A stretch of 45,254 bases of DNA from contig NZ_QBKP01000004.1 in NCBI RefSeq assembly GCF_003054195.1, positions 1 through 45,254 of the forward strand, read 5' to 3'. Shown here in pieces: positions 9,468 to 20,605 of the stretch (position 1 is its first letter; each line of letters begins with the position of its first letter). A program made the translations under genes and the position numbers. The notes below the pieces were generated by a model that was given only the letters and a program-made list of their open reading frames with translations, had not been told where the DNA came from and ran no database searches. Source of the DNA: Gemmobacter caeni (GTDB lineage: Bacteria; Pseudomonadota; Alphaproteobacteria; Rhodobacterales; Rhodobacteraceae).

Positions 9468-10775
9468 TCAGCGCGCCGCAGGGGCCAGCAGATCCGCCAG
9501 AACCAGCGCCATGACAAGGGCGCTGTCCTGCATGTCCTGCATACCGACCCATTCGTCAGGCTGATGCGCCAGATGCAGCAGGCCCGGCCCGTAGGCGATG
9601 CAGTTCTTCAGCCTTCCGATGCGGTCAATATGCTTCTGGTCATAGGTGCCCGGCGAGACGACGTAATCGGCGACCTGGCCCAGCACTTTTTCGATGGCGG
9701 CGGCTGTAGACCGCACCACCGGGGCGGCGCGTTCGGTCATGGTGGGCTGCACCTCGAACAGGTCGCGGATGGTGTAATCGAAGCCGGGGCGACTGGATTT
9801 CAACCCGTCGAGCAGGCTCGTCATCTCAGCCTTCACCTCGGGCAGGGCTTCCTCGATCAGGAAACGGCGGTCGAGCACGATGCGGCAGCGGTCGGCGACG
9901 CAGGGCGCGGGCAGGCCGGTGAAGCCGGGTTCGGCCTCGGCCTCGCCGCCGTGGATCGAATTGATGTTCAGTGTCGATTGCCGGGCGCCCTCGGGCACCA
10001 CCGGCATGGCGGTGCGCTTGGTGGAGAGGTGGGGATAGAGGCGATGCTCGATCTCCTCCAGCACCGCGCCCATGTGGCGGATGGCGCTGTCGCCGAGGAA
10101 GGGCATGGAGCCATGGGCGATGCGGCCCTTGGTTTCCACCTCGGCCCACCAGACGCCGCGATGGCCCAGACAGATGCGGTCCTTGTGCAGGGGTTCGGGG
10201 ATGATGACGTGCTGCACGCGGTCGGGGTCGAACCAGCCCTGTCCGGCAAGGTAGGCGACACCGCCATAGCCGCCGGATTCCTCGTCTGCCGTGGCGCTGA
10301 TTTCGATGGCGCCGGAGAAATCGGGGCAGGTGGCGATGAAGGCTTCGGCCGCGATGATGCTGGCGGCAAGGCCGCCCTTCATGTCGCAGGCGCCCCGGCC
10401 ATAGATGCGGTCCCCGTCGAGCTCCCCGCCAAAGGGCTCGCGGGTCCAGCCATGGCCGACCTCCACCACATCGTGATGGCTGTTGAAATGCACGCAGTCG
10501 CCGGGTGCGCTGCCTTCCCGCCGCGCCACCATGTTCCAGCGCGGCCATGTCTCGCTGTCGCCCGGTGCGCCCTCGGCCCGCACCAGCGCGGTGACGAAGC
10601 CGCGCGCCGACAGCCGGTCGGACAGGTAATCGCAGATCTCGCGGTAATGCCGACCCGGCGGGTTCAGCGTGGGAATGCGGATCAGATCCTGCGTCAGCGC
10701 GATCAGGTCATCGCGACGGGCGGCGATTTCGGCGGCGAGGCGGGGGTGCAGATCAGGTTCCATTTTGCGGATCAT
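9468..10775 (-). CDS. M20-family metallopeptidase (ArgE/DapE-like)
   Basis: A 435-residue zinc hydrolase of the acetylornithine deacetylase / succinyl-diaminopimelate desuccinylase family. Metal and catalytic residues are visible in order: H100-H101-D102 in FNSHHDVV, D131 in GACDMKGG, and E165-E166 in ATADEESGG. A dimerisation domain lies between about 200 and 320. True DapE is near 380 residues and ArgE near 385; this longer form belongs to a broad subgroup whose substrate cannot be read here. It could start at residue 5 (10763); neither ATG has a good ribosome site. The gene lies upstream of hemC on the same strand and is divergent from the cyclase-family gene with only 24 bases between. 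Confidence 0.85.
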   Translation of the reverse strand: MIRKMEPDLHPRLAAEIAARRDDLIALTQDLIRIPTLNPPGRHYREICDYLSDRLSARGFVTALVRAEGAPGDSETWPRWNMVARREGSAPGDCVHFNSHHDVVEVGHGWTREPFGGELDGDRIYGRGACDMKGGLAASIIAAEAFIATCPDFSGAIEISATADEESGGYGGVAYLAGQGWFDPDRVQHVIIPEPLHKDRICLGHRGVWWAEVETKGRIAHGSMPFLGDSAIRHMGAVLEEIEHRLYPHLSTKRTAMPVVPEGARQSTLNINSIHGGEAEAEPGFTGLPAPCVADRCRIVLDRRFLIEEALPEVKAEMTSLLDGLKSSRPGFDYTIRDLFEVQPTMTERAAPVVRSTAAAIEKVLGQVADYVVSPGTYDQKHIDRIGRLKNCIAYGPGLLHLAHQPDEWVGMQDMQDSALVMALVLADLLAPAAR

Positions 10776-10799: not shown

Positions 10800-11378
10800 A
10801 TGGACTGGATCGACCTTACCCGCCCGATGGATGAAACGCTGACGGTTTATGCGGAGCCGGGCTATTCCGACCCACCGTTCAGCGTTGAATCATGGTGCGA
10901 CATCGCCGGGCAGGGCTATGCGGTGCAGCGGCTCGCGCTCGGCACGCAATGCGGCACCCATATCGACGCCCCTGCCCATATGGCTGAAGGCGGCGCCACG
11001 CTGGAGGCGCTGCCGGTTTCCGCGCTGGTCGGGCGATATGTCACGCTGCGACCGGGGCAGGTGCCGGAGCGGGGCGACGCGACGCTGCTGTTCGTCGATG
11101 GCACGGCAGGGCCGGTCACGCGGGCCGGGTTCGACGCGGCACTGGCGCTGGGCTTTCCGGTCTGGGTCATGGCGGGCGGGTTGCAGGTGACGGGGGAGGA
11201 ACCCTTGTTCCTGCATCGGGCGCTGGCCCGAGCCGGGGTCTATCTGGTCGAGGATCTGGATGAGGTGGCCGTGGCGCAGTTGCCTGACCGGGGCGAGATC
11301 ATCGCGCTTCCCCTGCGTCTGGTCGGCACCGGCGGATCGCCCTGTCGCGTTCTGGCGCGTGGTGATGAGCTGCGTTGA
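10800..11378 (+). CDS. Cyclase-family protein (kynurenine formamidase-like)
   Basis: A 192-residue metal-dependent hydrolase of the cyclase/KynB fold. The zinc site is seen in TQCGTHIDAPAHM, with H54, D56 and H60. LTRPMDETL at the N-terminus is the usual opening of this family. Members hydrolyse N-formylkynurenine, isatin or similar compounds. No tryptophan-catabolic gene lies next to it, so the substrate is open. The neighbouring divergent M20 hydrolase may act on a related amide, but this is inference. The ATG has no clear ribosome site. Confidence 0.82.
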   Translation: MDWIDLTRPMDETLTVYAEPGYSDPPFSVESWCDIAGQGYAVQRLALGTQCGTHIDAPAHMAEGGATLEALPVSALVGRYVTLRPGQVPERGDATLLFVDGTAGPVTRAGFDAALALGFPVWVMAGGLQVTGEEPLFLHRALARAGVYLVEDLDEVAVAQLPDRGEIIALPLRLVGTGGSPCRVLARGDELR

Positions 11379-11508: not shown

Positions 11509-12582
11509 ATGGCCACGTTTGATGCCCAGATCGCCGAAAGCCAGAAGCAGATCGCAGAGGCTCAGGAAAAGATTGCCGCCATCACAACCCGGATCGAAAC
11601 CGCGCGTCAGAACCTGTCGCAGGGCGACGCTTCCATCGACATCGAGAATGCGACGCTGGAGGATGTTCACAAACACACCGACCTGATGAACGCCAATATC
11701 GCCGAGCTGATCATGGGGCTGGACGATGTGACGGCGGGTTTCACCGAAGATTTCAACGAACTGCGGTCGAAAACCACCATGGAAAGCGTGGTAGGCTTCT
11801 TCTCGGGCTCCAAATCCGAAGCGATGCGGCAGGAACGCCTGCGCACCGCCTCGATCGACAGCAAGTTGCAGGATCTGATCTCGAAATCCGATGTGATCGT
11901 GAAGCTGCTGCAAGGGCAGCTTGACCTGCTGAACGGCCAGAAAACCAAGGTGGAGGCAAACCTCGTCAGCACGCTCGACGAGCGTGAAACCACCGTGGCC
12001 GAGCTGGAGGCCGTGCGCACCCGCGTTGCCGCCATGGACCCGCAGATCATCGAACTGGAAAACAAGATCGCGGTTGAACAGGACGCCGCCGCGCGCACCA
12101 AGCTGGAAACCGATCTTGCGACGCTGAACGCCGAATACAATGCGCTGGTGCAGGATGAACAGGTGAAGCTGGCGAAAAGCCAGACGCTTGAGCGTTATAT
12201 CGAGAAGGGCAAGACCTGGGTCGACAGTTTGCAGAACCAGGCGGCGACGCAGATGGTGCTGATCAACAAGCTGCAAACCGACACCCGTCAGCGAGTGGTG
12301 CTGTATGACGCGCTGACGTCCTCACTGAAAACAGCGCAGCAGCAGGATGTTGCGCACCGGATCAACGAGATCGGCGTCAAGACCGACCAGGAGGCGCAGG
12401 CCGCCATGGCCGCCATCGGCACCGCCACAAATCAGCGCATGGCCGACATGCTGGAGGCGCACGAGGGCCATATGGTCTTTGCGCGGCAGGTGCTGGAGGC
12501 GAAGGCCAAGGCTGACGAACGCTTTGCGCGGCGCTTTGCCAAGATCGTCGAGAAACACGACAAGAACCAGTATGGCGAATAA
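11509..12582 (+). CDS. Soluble coiled-coil protein, first gene of the AAA/DUF1523 operon
   Basis: A 357-residue, almost entirely alpha-helical protein with no signal or membrane segment. Heptad-like runs rich in A, E, K, Q and L cover about residues 5-45 and 120-250 (for example IAESQKQIAEAQEKIAA). A more compact helical region is at 250-345, and a basic end (RRFAKIVEKHDK) follows. I do not recognise a named family; it loosely recalls TelA-type and PspA-like helical proteins, but no signature settles it. The ATG has a strong GGAGGA site 6 bases upstream. It lies directly before an unknown gene and an AAA+ ATPase, which suggests it is a filament, adaptor or substrate for that ATPase (inference). 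Confidence 0.82.
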   Translation: MATFDAQIAESQKQIAEAQEKIAAITTRIETARQNLSQGDASIDIENATLEDVHKHTDLMNANIAELIMGLDDVTAGFTEDFNELRSKTTMESVVGFFSGSKSEAMRQERLRTASIDSKLQDLISKSDVIVKLLQGQLDLLNGQKTKVEANLVSTLDERETTVAELEAVRTRVAAMDPQIIELENKIAVEQDAAARTKLETDLATLNAEYNALVQDEQVKLAKSQTLERYIEKGKTWVDSLQNQAATQMVLINKLQTDTRQRVVLYDALTSSLKTAQQQDVAHRINEIGVKTDQEAQAAMAAIGTATNQRMADMLEAHEGHMVFARQVLEAKAKADERFARRFAKIVEKHDKNQYGE

Positions 12583-13713
12583 GTGTCCGATACGGTGAAA
12601 GAGGCGCTGACCGACGATCACGCCACGCTGTCTGACGGCCTGCTGGCGCGGCGGTATTTCGCCAAGTTCGACGCGATCACCGGCCATCTGGGTCGGGTCG
12701 CGGCGGAACTGGAGGCCGAGGGGCGTCTGGGTCGGCTGGAGGCGCGGGTAATCGGCGGCTATGTGCAGCGGCTCGCGGCGACCTTCCGCGCGCTCAGCCA
12801 CAAATATCTGATGACCGGGCGGCTGGAGGGCGCGCTGCCCGGTGCGCCGACCTTTGACCGGCATGAAAGCGGCTTTCCCATCGCGCAGGAACTGATGCTG
12901 ATGGCGGTGGATGCGCAGCATGCCGTGCAGCATCTGGCGGGTATGGCGGCGGAGGCGGAGCTGAAAGACCGGATGGTGCGCCAGATCGTCGGTGATCTGA
13001 CGGTGCCGACGCAGTTGCAATTCGCGCTGTCGCAGCGGCTTTATTACGAGGCGCTGAAGGCGGGCGGGCTGTTTCAGGCGCGCAACGACCCCGATGCGCA
13101 ATGGGTGGCCGATGTGGGCGACCGGCGGCGCTTTCTGGTGCATTGGGCGGTTTACGACACGCAAACCAACCTGCCCGCGGTTTATCTGCTGGAGGTGGAG
13201 GATACCGGCCGCCGCCCCTTTCCGACCGATGACCGCCGCTGGCCGCAGGCGCAGGCGCATCTGATGGCGCAATCTCTGGCGGGGCTGAAGCTCGTGACCA
13301 TTGCCATGGGATTCGACCGCGACTTCGCCGATCTTTACCCCCGGCGGCTGCGGCGGATCACGCTGGGGCCGATGTATTCGCACAGCTTCACCCTGCAATC
13401 CGGCCCCATCGCCGAGGTGCTCGCCAATGCCATGGCCCCGACGGGCGAGGATTGGGCGCTGGTCTGGACCATCGAAGATCTGCTCTCGGACCGTGAGGAA
13501 GAGGTGAAGGACGGCTGGTTTTCCACCGCTTTACGGCAGGTCTGGCGGCTGGATCCGGTGAACGGCGGTGAGACCGGCGCCACGCGGCTGGAACGCATGA
13601 TGATCCTGCCGGAACGCCCCTATCAGGCGCTGGCCGAGCTGAACCCGCCCGGTTTCGCCAATATCCGTAAATTCGTTGTGGGTGCCGGCGGGCGCCTCAT
13701 TCCCGCGAGGTAG
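12583..13713 (+). CDS. Unknown protein B of the AAA/DUF1523 operon
   Basis: A 376-residue soluble protein of no family I can name. The first 150 residues look helical (ALSHKYLMTGRLEGALPG, QHAVQHLAGMAAEAEL), and the rest is mixed alpha/beta. No catalytic motif, signal or membrane segment is seen. Translation starts at GTG immediately after the TAA of the coiled-coil gene, with no spacer, and the stop is two bases before the ATPase ATG. This tight packing implies production with the ATPase in fixed proportion. A role as a partner or adaptor is inferred from position only. Confidence 0.8.
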   Translation: MSDTVKEALTDDHATLSDGLLARRYFAKFDAITGHLGRVAAELEAEGRLGRLEARVIGGYVQRLAATFRALSHKYLMTGRLEGALPGAPTFDRHESGFPIAQELMLMAVDAQHAVQHLAGMAAEAELKDRMVRQIVGDLTVPTQLQFALSQRLYYEALKAGGLFQARNDPDAQWVADVGDRRRFLVHWAVYDTQTNLPAVYLLEVEDTGRRPFPTDDRRWPQAQAHLMAQSLAGLKLVTIAMGFDRDFADLYPRRLRRITLGPMYSHSFTLQSGPIAEVLANAMAPTGEDWALVWTIEDLLSDREEEVKDGWFSTALRQVWRLDPVNGGETGATRLERMMILPERPYQALAELNPPGFANIRKFVVGAGGRLIPAR

Positions 13714-13715
13714 AA

Positions 13716-15647
13716 ATGAGCACACGCGACACGATGGAGCTGAAGGAAGAAACCATCCGTGCCCATTACGAGGGGGCGCTGGGCTTGCTGACCGGCTTCG
13801 ATCACGCGCCACGCATCGCCACGGCAACGGCGGCCCCGGCGGCGGAACCCGAACGCTCGCCCGGGATCGGGGCGCGGCCGCGTTTCCGGTCGACCGTGCC
13901 GGGGATGGCGGCGCGGCCCGTGGCCCGGCCCGGCGGCGTGCGGCTGGTCGAACGGATCGAGGCTTTGGGCGAGGGTCTGGTGACGCCGCCCGAGGCGCAG
14001 GCGCTTGCGGCGCTGCGGCGGGGTCTCGCCATTGCGCTGGCCATGGGGGAAACCTTTGCGCAAGGGTCCGCGCTGGCCGAGTTGAAACGTGCCAACCTTG
14101 AGGCCCGCCTGCCCGAACCGCGCCGGGCCGAGTTTACCGCGCTGCTGGCTGCCGAGGCGCTGGTGGTGTTGCATGCCTTCGCCAATGCCACGGCCTATCT
14201 GCTGGCGCCTGCGCTGGGCGAGGTGACGGTGGAACTGGGCACGGTCGAGGAGATCCTGACCGACAACGCACCGCTCGCGCTGCAAGGTGCGCTGTGGGAG
14301 CTGGATCAGGACATCGCCACCCATGGCACGGATGACCCACGCCTGATCGCCACCATCGCTGCCTTCTGCGAGGCGCTGATGACCCGCGTCGCCTCCCGCG
14401 TCGAGGGCGTGGCACCTGCCGCACTGTTTGCCGCTCAAAGCTGGCGGGTGGAGGCGGACGGGCTGACCCTTGCAGGCTTCAGCCCCGCCCGCGCCGCGAA
14501 GGGCACGGCACTGACCATGCAGTTCAGGAAACCGACCGAGGTGGTCGGCAACCATATCGCCAAATATCAGGCGATGCGGCTGGCCAAGATGCTGATGGCC
14601 TATGATTTCAGCCGGAAGCTCAACCCCTTCGCGGAACTGGGCGGCTTCATCTTCACCTTCATGGGCGATGGCAAACCGGGCACCGGCAAGACCACGCTTA
14701 TTCAGATGATGGCGGGGCTGTTGAACGATTACTGCAAGGTCGCGGGCTACCCGTTCCGCTATCAGAACTTCTCGATAGACCAGATCGACAGCTATCAGGG
14801 CAAATCAGGGCAGAACGCCAAGGCCTTCATCACCAATGTCATCGACCCGGCGGTGATTGCCTTCGGCACCATCGACGACATCGACCAGATCGCGGGCAAG
14901 CGCGGCGACCGGCAGTCGAGCGCGGGCCAGCAGGAGGTGACGGCGGTGTTCATGGAGGCCTTCGCCGGCGCCAATACCGTGGTGCGCGGCAATTGCACCT
15001 TTGGCATGTTCTCGAACTATCCCGAAAACGTCGATGACGCGCTGCGTCAGCGGGCGGGTGCACGGTTTCTGGTGGATGGGCCGCAAAGCCGCGAGGATTA
15101 CATCGACATCCTCGCGCTGCTGCTGGGCAAGAACCATGCGATTCCGCTGGGGGAGCATGACCTGTTTGCCGCGCAGGAGATCAAGCGCGCCGTGGCGGCG
15201 AGTTTCGAAAAACACGCCCGCCCGCAGGAGGACGGCCTGATCCGGGTGTTCGACAAGGTGGCGGCTGACATCGGGCCGCTGGACACGATCGCGAAGCTTG
15301 GCACCTACCTCAAGGCGATCCAGCAGGCCGATGACCGTTTCACCGGGCGGGCGATCAAGAACATCACCGACGCGGTGAAGGTGCGGGCAATGGATTTCGA
15401 ACTGCCCGACGCTTGGATGGAAACCCCCGACCTGTTCCTGTTTCAGCCTTATGAGCGGAAGATGGAGATGATCCGAAGCCTGATGACGCCAATCACGGTG
15501 GAAATGGTGGTGCAGGAGATCAACCGCTACGCGGATTCGGAATTCCGCTATGCGGACAAATCGGACGAGGCTGCGATCAGCGCCATGGTCCGTGATTTCG
15601 GCCGGCAGGAAGAGGCGAAGCGGCGCTATCTGGAGGGGCGGGGATGA
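13716..15647 (+). CDS. Classical-type AAA+ ATPase with a long N-terminal domain
   Basis: A 643-residue ATPase. About 270 residues precede the ATPase module; they include an alanine/proline-rich linker (35-70) and a helical domain (75-240). Walker A is GDGKPGTGKTT at 317-327, and Walker B is VIAFGTIDDID at 380-390. The sensor-1 asparagine is N434 in MFSNYPENVDDAL, followed by arginines at 444, 446 and 450 (RQRAGAR), where classical AAA proteins carry their arginine fingers. The order resembles FtsH/Vps4-class unfoldases, but no protease or membrane segment is fused. It probably works as a ring on partners encoded beside it. The exact substrate is unknown. Confidence 0.9.
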   Translation: MSTRDTMELKEETIRAHYEGALGLLTGFDHAPRIATATAAPAAEPERSPGIGARPRFRSTVPGMAARPVARPGGVRLVERIEALGEGLVTPPEAQALAALRRGLAIALAMGETFAQGSALAELKRANLEARLPEPRRAEFTALLAAEALVVLHAFANATAYLLAPALGEVTVELGTVEEILTDNAPLALQGALWELDQDIATHGTDDPRLIATIAAFCEALMTRVASRVEGVAPAALFAAQSWRVEADGLTLAGFSPARAAKGTALTMQFRKPTEVVGNHIAKYQAMRLAKMLMAYDFSRKLNPFAELGGFIFTFMGDGKPGTGKTTLIQMMAGLLNDYCKVAGYPFRYQNFSIDQIDSYQGKSGQNAKAFITNVIDPAVIAFGTIDDIDQIAGKRGDRQSSAGQQEVTAVFMEAFAGANTVVRGNCTFGMFSNYPENVDDALRQRAGARFLVDGPQSREDYIDILALLLGKNHAIPLGEHDLFAAQEIKRAVAASFEKHARPQEDGLIRVFDKVAADIGPLDTIAKLGTYLKAIQQADDRFTGRAIKNITDAVKVRAMDFELPDAWMETPDLFLFQPYERKMEMIRSLMTPITVEMVVQEINRYADSEFRYADKSDEAAISAMVRDFGRQEEAKRRYLEGRG

Positions 15648-15682
15648 GCGTTTGGGGGCCCTGCCCCCGCGCCTGCGGAGCG

Positions 15683-15710
15683 CCCCGGGATATTTGGGAA
15701 CAGATGAAAG
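15683..15710 (+). repeat. Dispersed intergenic element, copy 2 (within the operon)
   Basis: The 75-base space between the ATPase gene and the next gene holds a GC-rich hairpin region (GGGGGCCCTGCCCCC at 15655-15669). CCCCGGGATATTTGGG follows at 15684-15699, then AACAGATGAAAG. It resembles the copies near 8445, 23904 and 42977. Its place inside an operon may reduce expression of the genes downstream. Confidence 0.4.
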
Positions 15711-15722
15711 GAGCGGGTTGCG

Positions 15723-17093
15723 GTGCGGCGGCTGATTGAAAAGGGCCTGATGTTCGGCAATCTGGTCGAGGTGTCCTCGCCTGCGCTGGTAGAACGCTAT
15801 CGGCGGGCGCTGCGGCATCTGACGGGCAAGGACACGACGCTGACCGATTTTCACATCGACATTTCCGGCTATTCGCCGGAGATCGGCGATGAGCTGGGAG
15901 ATGATCTTTATCTCAACCCCAATGGCTGCAACCGGCAGTTCATCCTGCTGACCACGGCGCAGAAAACGGCGCCGCTGCTGCATATCAGGTTTTCAACATC
16001 GCGCGGCATCCTGCAACAGTTCATCGAGGCGAACGAGGCGCAGTTGTTCGCGCTGACCGCGCGCGATGCGGTGGCCGGAGAGTTGGAGAACAGCGTTTAC
16101 GAAGTGTCCACCCCGGCGCGGCTGTTCGACATGCGGCGGGTGACGGTGCAGGCCGACACCATCGGCGGCCATGTGCGCGATGCGGGCAAGCTTGCCGCGC
16201 TGGTGGATCGGTTCCGGCGCGAGCCGGAAGGCTGGCGCGACGATGTGCTGATCGCGCAGATGATCGAACTTGCCAAAAAGACTGGCGATGTGACGCGGGT
16301 TCCAATCTCGTTGCCCGCCATGAGCTTTGAACAGCCTGATTTCTGGACCGCGCATTTCGGCGGCCTGTATATCTTCCGCGAGCTGGCCTTTACGGGGGTA
16401 ATCACACGCGCGCCGAAAGCGGGGCTCGGCGCCCTGCCAGTGGCGCCGGTGATGGATCTGGGGGACCGGAACGCGATTGCCGATTGGCTGGAGCGGAACA
16501 AGCTGGTCGAACCCATCGTGCAGGCGCGGGGCACGGATGTGGCGGCGATCCTGCGGCAGAAGATGGATTTCATTCTGGTCGATGCGGCAGACGCGCTGAA
16601 CCTTGATCTGGGGCAGGCGACGCGGGCCGATCTGCGCAAGATCGCGCATCGGCTGGGTGCGGCGCTGCCGGCGGAGTTTCAGGGGTTGGGCGCGCTGCTG
16701 CGCTGGGTGGAAGGGGCGGGGGACTGGCCGCGGCTCACCTCGGAACATCCGGCCTATTTCTATACGTTGCGGGCAAGGCCGGGTCGCCTTCGCGATCTGG
16801 TGAACATGCTTCTGGCCGAGCTGGCGCCGTTGGACGTGCGGCAGCTTTACATCACCCACAAGGAACTGTTCTACGACAGCTACCGCAGCTGGAGCGACCG
16901 CAAGCGGCAATATGTGGCGGATTTTCTGGAGCGGGAGTATCTGGTGGACCGGCAGGGTGCCCGACGCGCGCTGTTCGGACCGGAGCCGGGGATGGATGAG
17001 TTGCAGCGCCCGGAAATGCGTGAGGGGCCGAAACCGGCGCCCGATCTGTTGCAACGTGTCGGGCCCTGGGGGGCGGTGAGGGGGAGGGGATGA
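15723..17093 (+). CDS. Unknown protein D of the AAA/DUF1523 operon
   Basis: A 456-residue soluble protein with no family name I can assign. It begins MRRLIEKGLMFGNLVEVS and contains a long mixed region. Near residue 380 it has a conserved-looking stretch (YITHKELFYDSYRSW, then KRQYVADFLEREYL), and it ends in a proline/glycine-rich tail. No signal, membrane segment or catalytic signature is seen. The start is GTG, with AAAGGAG about 9 bases upstream; an ATG at residue 10 (15750) is an alternative. The stop overlaps the next ATG by four bases. A GC-rich element separates it from the ATPase gene. Its role is inferred only from the operon. Confidence 0.82.
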   Translation: MRRLIEKGLMFGNLVEVSSPALVERYRRALRHLTGKDTTLTDFHIDISGYSPEIGDELGDDLYLNPNGCNRQFILLTTAQKTAPLLHIRFSTSRGILQQFIEANEAQLFALTARDAVAGELENSVYEVSTPARLFDMRRVTVQADTIGGHVRDAGKLAALVDRFRREPEGWRDDVLIAQMIELAKKTGDVTRVPISLPAMSFEQPDFWTAHFGGLYIFRELAFTGVITRAPKAGLGALPVAPVMDLGDRNAIADWLERNKLVEPIVQARGTDVAAILRQKMDFILVDAADALNLDLGQATRADLRKIAHRLGAALPAEFQGLGALLRWVEGAGDWPRLTSEHPAYFYTLRARPGRLRDLVNMLLAELAPLDVRQLYITHKELFYDSYRSWSDRKRQYVADFLEREYLVDRQGARRALFGPEPGMDELQRPEMREGPKPAPDLLQRVGPWGAVRGRG

Positions 17094-17356
17094 TCGGTAT
17101 TCTGCGTGCCTGGCTTCTTGGCCTTGTCGTCCTGACGGCCTTCTACTGGCTGCTGAAGATCTACTTCCGGTCCACCCGGCGCGAGAGGCTGGAAAAGCAG
17201 TTCGAGGCCGAGGCGATGACGGGCGACCGCGATGCCTGGGTCGAAGCGCAGATGAAGGACTACGGGCGCAGCCTGAAGCTGAAGCTCGTCTGGCTGGTTT
17301 ATATCCTGCCGATGATCGGCATGGCACTGGCCATCTATTTCGTGAATTACGACTGA
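17090..17356 (+). CDS. Small two-helix membrane protein of the AAA/DUF1523 operon
   Basis: An 88-residue protein with hydrophobic segments at about 5-24 (WLLGLVVLTAFYWLLKIYF) and 67-84 (WLVYILPMIGMALAIYF). They enclose a charged loop of some 40 residues that begins with RSTRRERLEK. The positive-inside rule places the loop in the cytoplasm, where it could meet the soluble operon proteins. The ATG overlaps the stop of the preceding gene (ATGA), so translation is likely coupled. The family is not recognised. Confidence 0.8.
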   Translation: MIGILRAWLLGLVVLTAFYWLLKIYFRSTRRERLEKQFEAEAMTGDRDAWVEAQMKDYGRSLKLKLVWLVYILPMIGMALAIYFVNYD

Positions 17357-17371
17357 AGGAGTGCCCTTGGC

Positions 17372-18025
17372 ATGTGGAAATATATCAAATGGGGCTTCCG
17401 CATCACGGTGCTGATCATCGTGGCGGCCTTCCTGCACTACACTTTGCCGCAGCGGGATATCGTGCGGATCACCGGCACCTACAACCGGCTGACCGAGGTG
17501 GGGGCGAACTCGATCTTCTACGCCTCGCCCGACAGCGGCACGACCACCAATACGGTGGACCGGCGTGACATCCGTTTCATCGAGGCGGCCTATCCCGATG
17601 GTGGGCCGATGGTCTATCGCAACGAGGATACCGGCTGGATCTGGCCGCCCTATTTCAAATACGACAGCTCCAACCTTCAGGCCGAGGCGACCAATGCGAT
17701 CTCGCCCAAGGACAAGCCGGAATGGGTGGCGGTCACGCATTACGGCTGGCGGCTGCCGATCTTCTCGATCTATCCCAATGCGGTGAAGATCAAGCCCGTC
17801 GCGGGGCCGGATGTGCGGCTGATCCCTTGGGTGAACATCGTGGTTCTGGTGCTGCTGGGTCTGCTGGTCCTGATGCTGTGGCGCATGTGGGCCCAGTTCA
17901 AGGAGCGGATGATCGAACCGGCAATGGATGATCTGAACAACACGCTGGATGCGGTGGATGCGCGGGCCGATGCGGCGCGGGACCGGGCGCGGGGCTTCTG
18001 GGGGCGGTTGTTCGGCAGGAAATGA
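17372..18025 (+). CDS. DUF1523 family membrane protein
   Basis: A 217-residue protein matching the DUF1523 pattern as I know it. An N-terminal membrane segment (7-24) precedes a periplasmic domain with HYTLPQRDIVRITGTYNR, repeated acidic-aromatic motifs and a GWIWPPYFKYD stretch. A second membrane segment lies at about 151-170, and a cytoplasmic coiled tail (RMIEPAMDDLNNTLDAVDAR) follows. The function of DUF1523 is unknown. A GAAGGAG site precedes the ATG. It closes the operon and ends at a strong bidirectional hairpin. The cytoplasmic helical tail could dock the soluble partners (inference). Confidence 0.85.
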   Translation: MWKYIKWGFRITVLIIVAAFLHYTLPQRDIVRITGTYNRLTEVGANSIFYASPDSGTTTNTVDRRDIRFIEAAYPDGGPMVYRNEDTGWIWPPYFKYDSSNLQAEATNAISPKDKPEWVAVTHYGWRLPIFSIYPNAVKIKPVAGPDVRLIPWVNIVVLVLLGLLVLMLWRMWAQFKERMIEPAMDDLNNTLDAVDARADAARDRARGFWGRLFGRK

Positions 18026-19027: not shown

Positions 19028-20605
19028 ATGGCAAAGATTGCCTATATTTTGTTGTGCCACAAGGACCCTGAAGGGATCATCGCTCAGGCGCAGCGCCTGA
19101 CGGCGGCTGGTGACTATATCTCGATCCACTTCGATGCCCGCGCGAAGCGGGAGGATTTTGACCAGATCCGTTCCGCGCTGGCGAACAACCCCTCGGTGAC
19201 CTTCGCGCGGAAGCGGCTCAAATGCGGCTGGGGGGAGTGGAGCCTGGTCGATGCCTCGTTGCAGGCAGTGCGCGCGGCGGTTGAGGATTTTCCGCGCGCG
19301 ACACATTTCTACATGCTGTCGGGCGACTGCATGCCGATCAAGACCGCCGAATATGCCCATGATTTCCTGGATCGTGAAGAAGCCGACTACATCGAGAGCT
19401 TCGATTTCTTCTCTTCGGACTGGATCAAGACCGGCATCAAGGGCGAGCGGCTGATCTACCGCCACTGGTTCAACGAACGGACCCAGAAATGGCTGTTCTA
19501 CACCTCGATGGGGCTACAGCAGAAATTCGGGCTGGAGCGGACGATCCCCGAGGATCTGACCATCCAGATCGGCAGCCAGTGGTGGTGCCTGCGCCGCCGC
19601 ACGGTGGAATGGATTCTGGATTTCTGCCGCAAACGGAAGGATGTGATGCGATTCTTCCGCACCACCTGGATTCCCGATGAAACCTTCTTTCAGACGCTGG
19701 TGCGCCATCTGGTCCCGCACGAGGAAATCCGCACCCGGACGCTTACCTTCCTGATGTTCACTGACTACGGAATGCCGGTGAACTTCTACAACGATCAGTA
19801 TGATCTTCTGATCGCGCAGGATTATCTGTTCGCCCGCAAGATCTCGGTCGATGCGCAGGAGCTGAAAGAGCGGCTGGGCAACCTGTACACCTCCGAAGGG
19901 GTGCATTTCCCGGTGTCGAACGAGGGGCGCAGCCTCTACAAGTTTCTGACTGGCCGAGGCCGGATCGGCCGTCGTTTCGCTCCGCGCTTCTGGGAGACCG
20001 AGGCGAGCCTTGGACGCGAACGCACGCTGCTGATTGTCACCTGCAAGAAATGGCACGTTGCCAAGCGGCTGGTGCAGCGCATCCGCGATGTTACCGGGCT
20101 GGCGGCGGTGGATTATGTGTTCAGCGAGGCATCGACCCCGTTGCCCGATCTGGGCGGGATCCAGTCTACTCTGGAAAAGCGCACGCGCCATCGCCGGGCG
20201 CTGGTGCGGATGCTGTTCGATTACTGGGATACCGACAAGCTGGTGCTGTGCATCGACCCCGCGAATGTGGAGCTGATGCAGGATTTCTACAATGACCGCT
20301 CTAACGTACGGCTGCTGGAAATCGAATGCGACTTTACCGACGACTATCTTCTGGGCCACGCCCGGCGGGTGGGGCTGGCAGGGGACAGGACGCCACAAGA
20401 GGTTCTGGACCGGCTGCTGCCGACCATCCGCTATGACGTGCGCTTTGAAAGCGACCGTATCCGCGACGCGGATTTCGAGAATTTCCATCGTATCCGGCAG
20501 GCTGCCACGGTAGAGGATAATGCCGGACCGCTGGCCGCCTTTCTGGGTGTGTCGCGCGGCAAGGCGCAAGAAATCGCAGAAACCCATTATCTGTTCGTGG
20601 ACTGA
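19028..20605 (+). CDS. GT14-type (core-2/I-branching) glycosyltransferase with extra C-terminal domain
   Basis: A 525-residue cytoplasmic or membrane-associated transferase. Residues 1-250 match the core-2/I-branching beta-1,6-GlcNAc / xylosyltransferase family (GT14): IAYILLCHKDPEG at 4-16, MLSGDCMPI at 96-104, IGSQWWCLRR at 181-190 and PDETFFQTL at 216-224. Residues 330-525 form a second alpha/beta domain (LLIVTCKKWHVAKRLVQRI) of unknown role that is found attached to this transferase in Rhodobacteraceae. A sugar-nucleotide donor (UDP-GlcNAc or UDP-xylose) is expected. It is divergent from a sulfotransferase and 5 bases upstream of a HIT gene. A capsule, O-antigen or exopolysaccharide role is inferred. 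Confidence 0.88.
   Translation: MAKIAYILLCHKDPEGIIAQAQRLTAAGDYISIHFDARAKREDFDQIRSALANNPSVTFARKRLKCGWGEWSLVDASLQAVRAAVEDFPRATHFYMLSGDCMPIKTAEYAHDFLDREEADYIESFDFFSSDWIKTGIKGERLIYRHWFNERTQKWLFYTSMGLQQKFGLERTIPEDLTIQIGSQWWCLRRRTVEWILDFCRKRKDVMRFFRTTWIPDETFFQTLVRHLVPHEEIRTRTLTFLMFTDYGMPVNFYNDQYDLLIAQDYLFARKISVDAQELKERLGNLYTSEGVHFPVSNEGRSLYKFLTGRGRIGRRFAPRFWETEASLGRERTLLIVTCKKWHVAKRLVQRIRDVTGLAAVDYVFSEASTPLPDLGGIQSTLEKRTRHRRALVRMLFDYWDTDKLVLCIDPANVELMQDFYNDRSNVRLLEIECDFTDDYLLGHARRVGLAGDRTPQEVLDRLLPTIRYDVRFESDRIRDADFENFHRIRQAATVEDNAGPLAAFLGVSRGKAQEIAETHYLFVD

Follow-up and report, generated by a model that had tools for sequence, protein, structure and literature searches.

An AAA ATPase gene module of alphaproteobacteria with an exchangeable gene slot, a candidate conflict system

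The window analyzed here is a stretch of 45,254 nucleotides (nt) of Gemmobacter caeni DNA (NZ_QBKP01000004.1, positions 1–45,254), and its subject is a cluster of six genes at 11509–18025, labeled A to F, that includes a gene for a classical AAA ATPase. A sequence-only reading of the window had placed six open reading frames (ORFs) in this interval, and all six lie there on the plus strand. Comparison with other genomes shows a constant core, A to D, within which one gene is exchanged. The slot for this gene, usually between C and D and less often between A and B or B and C, holds a gene of changing family with a lower G+C content at third codon positions (GC3). In the window the features are as follows, with lengths in amino acids (aa).

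11509..12582, plus strand: gene A, a soluble coiled-coil protein of 357 aa that falls in no known family and is the best conserved of the module's proteins
12583..13713, plus strand: gene B, a soluble protein of 376 aa without a family
13716..15647, plus strand: gene C, a classical AAA ATPase of 643 aa
15648..15746, plus strand: the C–D slot, between the C stop and the D start, empty in the window
15747..17093, plus strand: gene D, a soluble DUF6638 (PF20343) protein of 448 aa
17090..17356, plus strand: gene E, a two-helix membrane protein of 88 aa that travels with F
17372..18025, plus strand: gene F, a DUF1523 (PF07509) membrane protein of 217 aa

For D the likeliest start is the ATG at 15747, since the DUF6638 profile begins at residue 2 of the protein read from there, so the C–D gap measures 99 bases. 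The 75-base gap given previously applies to an upstream GTG at 15723 and not to this likelier start, and the accompanying description of zero- to four-base junctions elsewhere does not fit E and F, which are 15 bases apart. An ATGA at 15644–15647 spans the C stop, an overlap also present at many filled slots, but in the window it opens only 31 codons (counted by eye). The window gap is the empty form of a hypervariable slot, and because it is empty the exchangeable gene was invisible to the earlier reader.

The six genes fall into two units. Gene C is present in 113 of 196 genomes of the order and in 53 of 88 genera, two of the 113 genomes (G123 and G137) yielding pieces only. From these 113, 60 loci of the family were read, 20 chosen for diversity and 40 from the top of the ranking. 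Together with four loci from outside the family they give the order A-B-C-D-F in 64 of 64 cases; in 55 of them E is recognized between D and F, and in seven more that place is taken by an ORF of comparable length (88–105 aa). Among the C-lacking genomes, 80 of 83 were searched for A and DUF1523, with three left out. Gene A was found in none of the 80, in a search that had no positive of its own and for which A in 60 of 60 C-bearing family loci serves as the control, whereas DUF1523 was found in 73 of the same genomes. At 25 sites without the module (5, plus 20 picked from the DUF1523 matches), A to D are absent at E ≤ 0.01 and E adjoins F in 19; one of these sites (L180) shows a faint piece of A (E 0.004). 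One genome (L126) retains only pieces of A, B, C and D, and another (G007) has a full A–F locus and a second E–F pair elsewhere beside an M20 gene (contigs C1 and C3; L171 and L124). Because A and DUF1523 part company in this way, the gene order holds in 64 of 64 loci, and E–F sites occur without A to D, the A–D genes are a module separate from the E–F pair, present or absent beside a pair that is itself stable.

The same division appears on a broader scale. At least 588 stretches of public genomes matched in a scan, 486 of them encoding relatives, and the best 80 of the 486 by similarity to a Vibrio ATPase are referred to as the named loci. Behind the module, DUF1523 is found in 53 of these and DUF2333 in 22; none has both, and five have neither, one being a real absence (L205) and the others short contigs or contig ends. 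The picture of a conserved operon joining a classical AAA ATPase, a coiled-coil protein and membrane partners thus stands, and that of one obligate six-gene unit does not: E–F is common in the family without A to D, and DUF2333 replaces E–F in 22 of the 80 named loci. Co-occurrence of all six homologues is likewise true in part, A to D being inherited together and E–F persisting without them. As had been stated, no assigned function was found for any of the six.

Slot size, start position, composition and turnover were read from 148 loci, i.e., the 60 family loci, the 4 others, the 80 named loci and 4 plasmid loci. Removal of 3 duplicates and of 10 loci in which not all of A to D could be called whole leaves 135. 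Of the ten, four (L199, L229, L231 and L232) run up to contig ends, and five (L133, L194, L202, L216 and L237) show all four genes by tblastn; the tenth is L205. In the 135 loci the C–D distance has a median of 619 bp and a maximum of 2131 bp, and it reaches at least 250 bp in 100. This length is reached at A–B in 45 of 135 loci and at B–C in 13 of 135, and never at D–E or E–F (0 of 95 for each, in loci with E recognized) or between D and DUF2333 (0 of 22). Of the 100 long gaps, 73 have an ORF of at least 80 aa whose start lies between −8 and +12 nt relative to the C stop, and in 52 the overlap is 4 nt. Without deduplication, and counting ORFs of at least 60 aa, 77 of 104 gaps have such a start at the C stop; among random windows inside C the figure is 63 of 2080. 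In 95 of 104 cases the longest C–D slot ORF runs on the operon strand, and in 9 on the opposite strand.

Slot genes also differ in composition from the genes around them. Their median GC3 is 0.52, compared with 0.81 for C and 0.80 for D, and it falls below that of C in 64 of 73 loci (p = 2.3e-12, a guide only, since related loci are not independent). The 73 loci hold 35 slot families, with sizes of 14, 10, 5, 5, 5, 2, 2, 2 and 2, the other 26 being singletons that may in part be spurious ORFs. Turnover is rapid: of 32 locus pairs whose C proteins are 95% identical or more, 5 have a slot family in common, and 11 of 73 loci share theirs with the nearest relative by C. Eight Ruegeria loci within one shallow C clade carry mostly different slot ORFs, with only L252 and L272 alike by eye. 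The smaller A–B slot (seen, e.g., in L136, L138 and L148) has 71 gaps of at least 180 bp, duplicates kept, and in 48 of these an ORF of 50 aa or more begins at the A stop; several A–B slot ORFs are about 80–110 aa long with two predicted helices.

The contents of the slot were scanned with Pfam and PADLOC in 51 hand-picked slot ORFs and in 82 of 84 listed ORFs (two of L193 left out), drawn from the C–D, A–B and B–C junctions out of 238 mechanical ORF calls (duplicates kept), some of which may not be genes. Ten slot proteins scanned singly gave, above cut-offs, putAbiC (L048), SLFN_AlbA_2 (L133), RNase_T with BRCT (L139) and DUF559 (L134), and below cut-offs DUF4145 (L140) and RHH (L044); L036, L150 and one protein of L139 had no match in these scans, and L040 had one sub-threshold match of no meaning. 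In the 51 and the 82 ORFs, DUF559 was tallied 2 and 6 times, respectively. Further tallies over the three junctions are two for DUF4145 (weak), two for PIN with one PIN_10, two for DUF2971, and one each for Mrr, AbiJ_NTD4 and Fic; all of these are plain counts. DUF4279 is also among the matches, and the PADLOC candidate families represented are PDC-S31, S02, S04, S37 and S48. Many slot ORFs have predicted membrane segments.

Several slot families reside mostly in this slot. A two-helix family with the motif NEIGDTLAG has 17 matches in the 196 genomes of the order, 15 of them directly downstream of C; a second slot family is found just downstream of C in 5 of 8 matches and a DUF4145-like family in 5 of 6 (query genome included in both of these counts). 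Across 15 members of the NEIGD family (105 pairs), the anchor block averages 56% identity and the part behind it 17%, so that the family reads as a constant putative membrane anchor with variable tails; one member ends in putAbiC. Relatives of the NEIGD slot family are also encoded on two viral contigs (L281 and L282).

The proteins of the module are well conserved. Mean column identity is 82% for A, 64% for B, 76% for C and 61% for D in alignments of 20–21 sequences, and because each of the four is conserved the observation is not due to chance. In a family scan of the window proteins, C matches PF00004 AAA at 1.4e-12, D matches PF20343 DUF6638 at 1.2e-210 and F matches PF07509 DUF1523 at 2.8e-71; no family lies above its curated cut-off for A, B or E. 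Membrane segments, predicted by simple hydropathy, number two in E and two in F, with none in A, B or D and one weakly hydrophobic stretch in C (residues 138–167). About 270 residues at the N terminus of the ATPase fall in no family, and its GDGxPGTGKT and DD motifs, which we take to be the Walker A and Walker B positions, are invariant in alignments of 20 and 8 sequences. The closest Protein Data Bank (PDB) entries to C by sequence are general AAA proteins, i-AAA first and then fidgetin-like 1, katanin and Vps4; by profile they are i-AAA, VCP-like and Rpt proteins.

For the other core proteins, structural comparison gives few leads. B has no PDB sequence match below E 0.48, and by profile A, B and D have no PDB relative below E 0.09, the best E for A being 0.09. 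The model of D is confident (predicted local distance difference test, pLDDT, 90), yet no fold in PDB or BFVD matches it at E ≤ 0.001, and its fold was set aside as a clue to function. The model of A (pLDDT 64) likewise has no fold match at E ≤ 0.001, and the best 50 listed are varied coiled coils and helical bundles. Gene A looks by eye like a plausible divergent TelA (PF05816); this identity was rejected at hhalign probabilities of 0.1 and 0.0 percent (with 21 or 68 A sequences), and a separate TelA gene exists in 36 of 41 family genomes. A relation of B and D as paralogues was also rejected. EAD9, an effector-associated domain, is weakly matched by 13 of 61 A homologues (best E 0.0015), possibly a chance match to a coiled coil. 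On a Pseudomonas plasmid (L195, 7992–9629), a TerD-vWA gene comes after DUF1523, which may connect the DUF1523 family with Ter-type stress systems; a 361-aa gene beside DUF1523 on a Pseudomonas plasmid was considered as A and is not A.

Two genes lie upstream of the cluster in the window.

9468..10775, minus strand: presumed M20-type peptidase gene
10800..11378, plus strand: putative cyclase (PF04199), between the M20 gene and A in the window genome

The first of these presumably encodes an M20-type peptidase; a Paracoccus homologue that lies beside DUF1523 is annotated as acetylornithine deacetylase family. Relatives of the M20 gene stand no more than 2 kb upstream of A in 18 of the 60 family loci, and of the 25 sites without A to D, 11 have one upstream of E or F. 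Downstream in the window are a sulfotransferase gene (PF03567; 18062–18949, minus strand) and a Core-2/I-branching glycosyltransferase fused to DUF5928 (19028–20605, plus strand), and this pair is kept together near F in a number of relatives. The window genome also has a second, diverged DUF1523 gene (contig C2, 330389–330835, 5.8e-33).

The DUF2333 form of the locus belongs mostly to rhizobial relatives, found in Phyllobacteriaceae (Mesorhizobium, Aminobacter, Aquamicrobium and Nitratireductor), Ahrensiaceae and others. FTHF ligase follows in 21 of 22 such loci and thymidine kinase precedes in 16 of 22, and two rhizobial plasmid loci (L193 and L194) resemble them. The division between E–F and DUF2333 does not follow order, as Roseibium, also in the Hyphomicrobiales, has DUF1523. 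In a quick tree of 86 ATPases, 23 DUF2333 loci and L198 make up a clade of 24 (support 99) in which long branches meet; neither DUF1523 nor DUF2333 was found at L198. A genome of another class (G615, locus L118) groups with a Rhodobacteraceae bacterium (support 99), a placement that suggests transfer.

The A-B-C-D order is also kept on plasmids of Vibrio and rhizobia. Circular Vibrio plasmids of 0.88–0.94 Mb carry C and A, with C in four records, and the one that was read (L192) has A-B-C-D alone and then mfd; mfd, secA and RNase H family genes are nearby on this plasmid. At a rhizobial site on Rhizobium leguminosarum plasmid pSK03 (L197, 9794–10867), a diverged A and DUF2333 were found and B, C and D were not. 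This degenerate A is without part of the most conserved C-terminal coil, and this one locus hints that the conserved coil segment of A works with B, C and D. An origin in phages was rejected, the window C matching 0 of 50,697 phage records and having no relative in viral contigs; the Vibrio C matched nine phage records through the AAA domain only (best 4e-6). Gene A was seen on one viral contig, near the contig end.

A constant core with a changing gene at a fixed position suggests a membrane-linked AAA+ chassis with exchangeable effectors, serving in abortive infection or another conflict system, a reading to which we assign a probability of about 0.5. The A–D genes and the slot gene together are probably a conflict (anti-phage) system. 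In this proposal A to D would be the constant, ATP-driven chassis. AAA proteins act as rings, and C is predicted to form one; A would be a coiled-coil scaffold, and B and D may be adaptors. The tie to the inner membrane would be made by E and DUF1523 in Rhodobacteraceae and several other families and by DUF2333 in Phyllobacteriaceae, Ahrensiaceae, Sinorhizobium and Shinella. Stop–start overlaps of 4 nt couple translation, and the slot product, a putative effector (a membrane-active protein, nuclease or toxin), would be made together with C and held or positioned by the chassis. The chassis may then sense infection or envelope damage, upon which the effector would be released or activated. A bolder form of the proposal, which we put forward only tentatively, is that of a new class of immune chassis: a membrane-docked classical AAA ring with a coiled-coil scaffold, two adaptors and a plug-in effector translationally coupled to the ATPase. 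Docking modules, the NEIGD membrane anchor for example, would be common to its effectors and killing domains would be exchanged, with the core re-armed by recombination between C and D.

Two kinds of described conflict system offer parallels. In the MoxR-vWA ternary systems (with VMAP, iSTAND or FtsH), as presented in the account of Kaur et al. 2020 (PMC7159879), an AAA+ chaperone core is likewise accompanied by constant partners, and effector domains are continually displaced between related organisms. The module differs in having a classical AAA domain (PF00004) and in having as its variable part a separate gene in a fixed slot; the family scan found no MoxR in C and no vWA match in A, B, D, E or F. 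In EcoprrI, by its published description (PMC3874165), the toxin gene prrC is embedded in a restriction–modification (R-M) operon and the larger complex keeps PrrC latent. A gene embedded within the operon of a larger complex is common to both, whereas here the chassis would be an AAA module and the embedded gene often changes family. No R-M domain was found in A to F by the family scan. By the features tested, the A–D pattern appears to resemble both the MoxR-vWA and the PrrC systems and to be a member of neither. Among the papers that text searches listed, none deals, by title and abstract start, with an AAA module with variable effectors like this one or with the cluster itself.

A number of observations weigh against the chassis–effector reading. 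The A–D core is strongly conserved and single-copy, and the recognized flanking genes are housekeeping genes; to our knowledge, a conserved single-copy core among housekeeping flanks is not typical of defense systems. No model in PADLOC-DB 2.0.0 recognizes A to F well: B, D, E and F have no match, and the weak ones are A to LmuB (4e-4) and C to TRIP13 (3.4e-5) and, more weakly, IetA. Most slot ORFs match no recognized domain in the Pfam and PADLOC scans, and some are not defense-like, including glycolipid-binding PF06475 (2) and thioredoxin. The C–D slot is short or empty in 35 of 135 loci, the window included, and L205 (Roseovarius sp. ZX-A-9) is a true exception to the arrangement, with A-B-C and without D, E or F behind C. 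Finally, the slot family seen most often consists of membrane proteins about 110 aa long, and 43 of its 43 matches fall at this locus: 31 follow C, and the other 12, in C-lacking genomes, lie immediately upstream of DUF1523. The family seems to belong with E–F and not with A–D, and because of this tie not every slot gene is an effector; it is counted within the turnover figures given above.

In one alternative, A to D would be a machine with a housekeeping role in the envelope or in proteostasis, and the slot a privileged landing place, so that the cargo is defensive and the chassis is not. Toxin, restriction and membrane genes that settled there would gain steady expression, or the chassis would guard them, much as the restriction enzyme guards PrrC. 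This is a serious rival, although a less likely one. It accounts for the high conservation of A and C, for flanking genes that recur at both types of site and for general toxin or nuclease domains (PIN, Fic, Mrr and DUF559) among the slot ORFs, and prrC within an R-M operon provides, as described (PMC3874165), a precedent. Against it stand three slot families found mostly in this slot (25 of 31 matches), which would hardly be expected of a neutral landing place, the frequent 4-nt overlap with the AAA gene, and the absence of A to D from many relatives and their decay in one (L126).

Slot proteins may instead be clients, the AAA ring with its adaptors B and D assembling or extracting varying membrane complexes and the slot holding the gene of the current client. 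Predicted membrane segments in many slot ORFs and the adjacent membrane genes E, F and DUF2333 would suit such a role; the nuclease, PIN, Fic, AbiJ and Schlafen cargo and the fast turnover of the slot are left unexplained, and we regard this alternative as improbable. We judge even less probable the likeness drawn previously to ESCRT-III/Vps4 membrane remodeling, with A polymerizing on the membrane and C disassembling the polymer. The parts list is the same, the AAA domain of C (PF00004) is of the classical type, its weaker sequence matches include Vps4, katanin and fidgetin-like 1, and PspA or Snf7 proteins are encoded beside AAA ATPases in bacteria (PMC11237479). Those operons likewise combine a coiled-coil protein, an AAA ATPase and membrane proteins; they differ in that A has no recognized PspA or Snf7 domain, and the main text of that paper does not mention DUF1523. 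Membership is unsupported: the family scan at E up to 1 found neither an MIT domain in C nor Snf7 or PspA in the window A, and the 25 of 45 weakly matched families listed for 61 A homologues do not include Snf7 or PspA. PspA or Snf7 was thus rejected as an identity for A, which also has no fold match or PDB profile match, and an exchangeable slot is not predicted by such remodeling. Given the poor model of A, a fold-level relation to ESCRT-III may nevertheless exist.

DUF6638, DUF1523 and DUF2333 gain a common context from the module. The first (PF20343) contains D, the second (PF07509) contains F, and the third (PF10095) contains the rhizobial replacement of F; all three are names without a function. 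A search of open-licence papers, preprints aside, found none mentioning DUF6638, and among the papers listed for DUF1523 and DUF2333 neither a function for these families nor an account of their linkage with A-B-C or of the slot was seen. Should the chassis prove to be a housekeeping machine, a conserved operon would contain, unusually, a landing site coupled to translation. If the slot encodes an effector, a single conserved machine shared by many alphaproteobacteria would display a natural library of interchangeable effectors at a single position. New toxins, most without a known domain, could then be found by reading the C–D interval, and the locus would offer a tractable test of how an AAA+ machine restrains its effectors.

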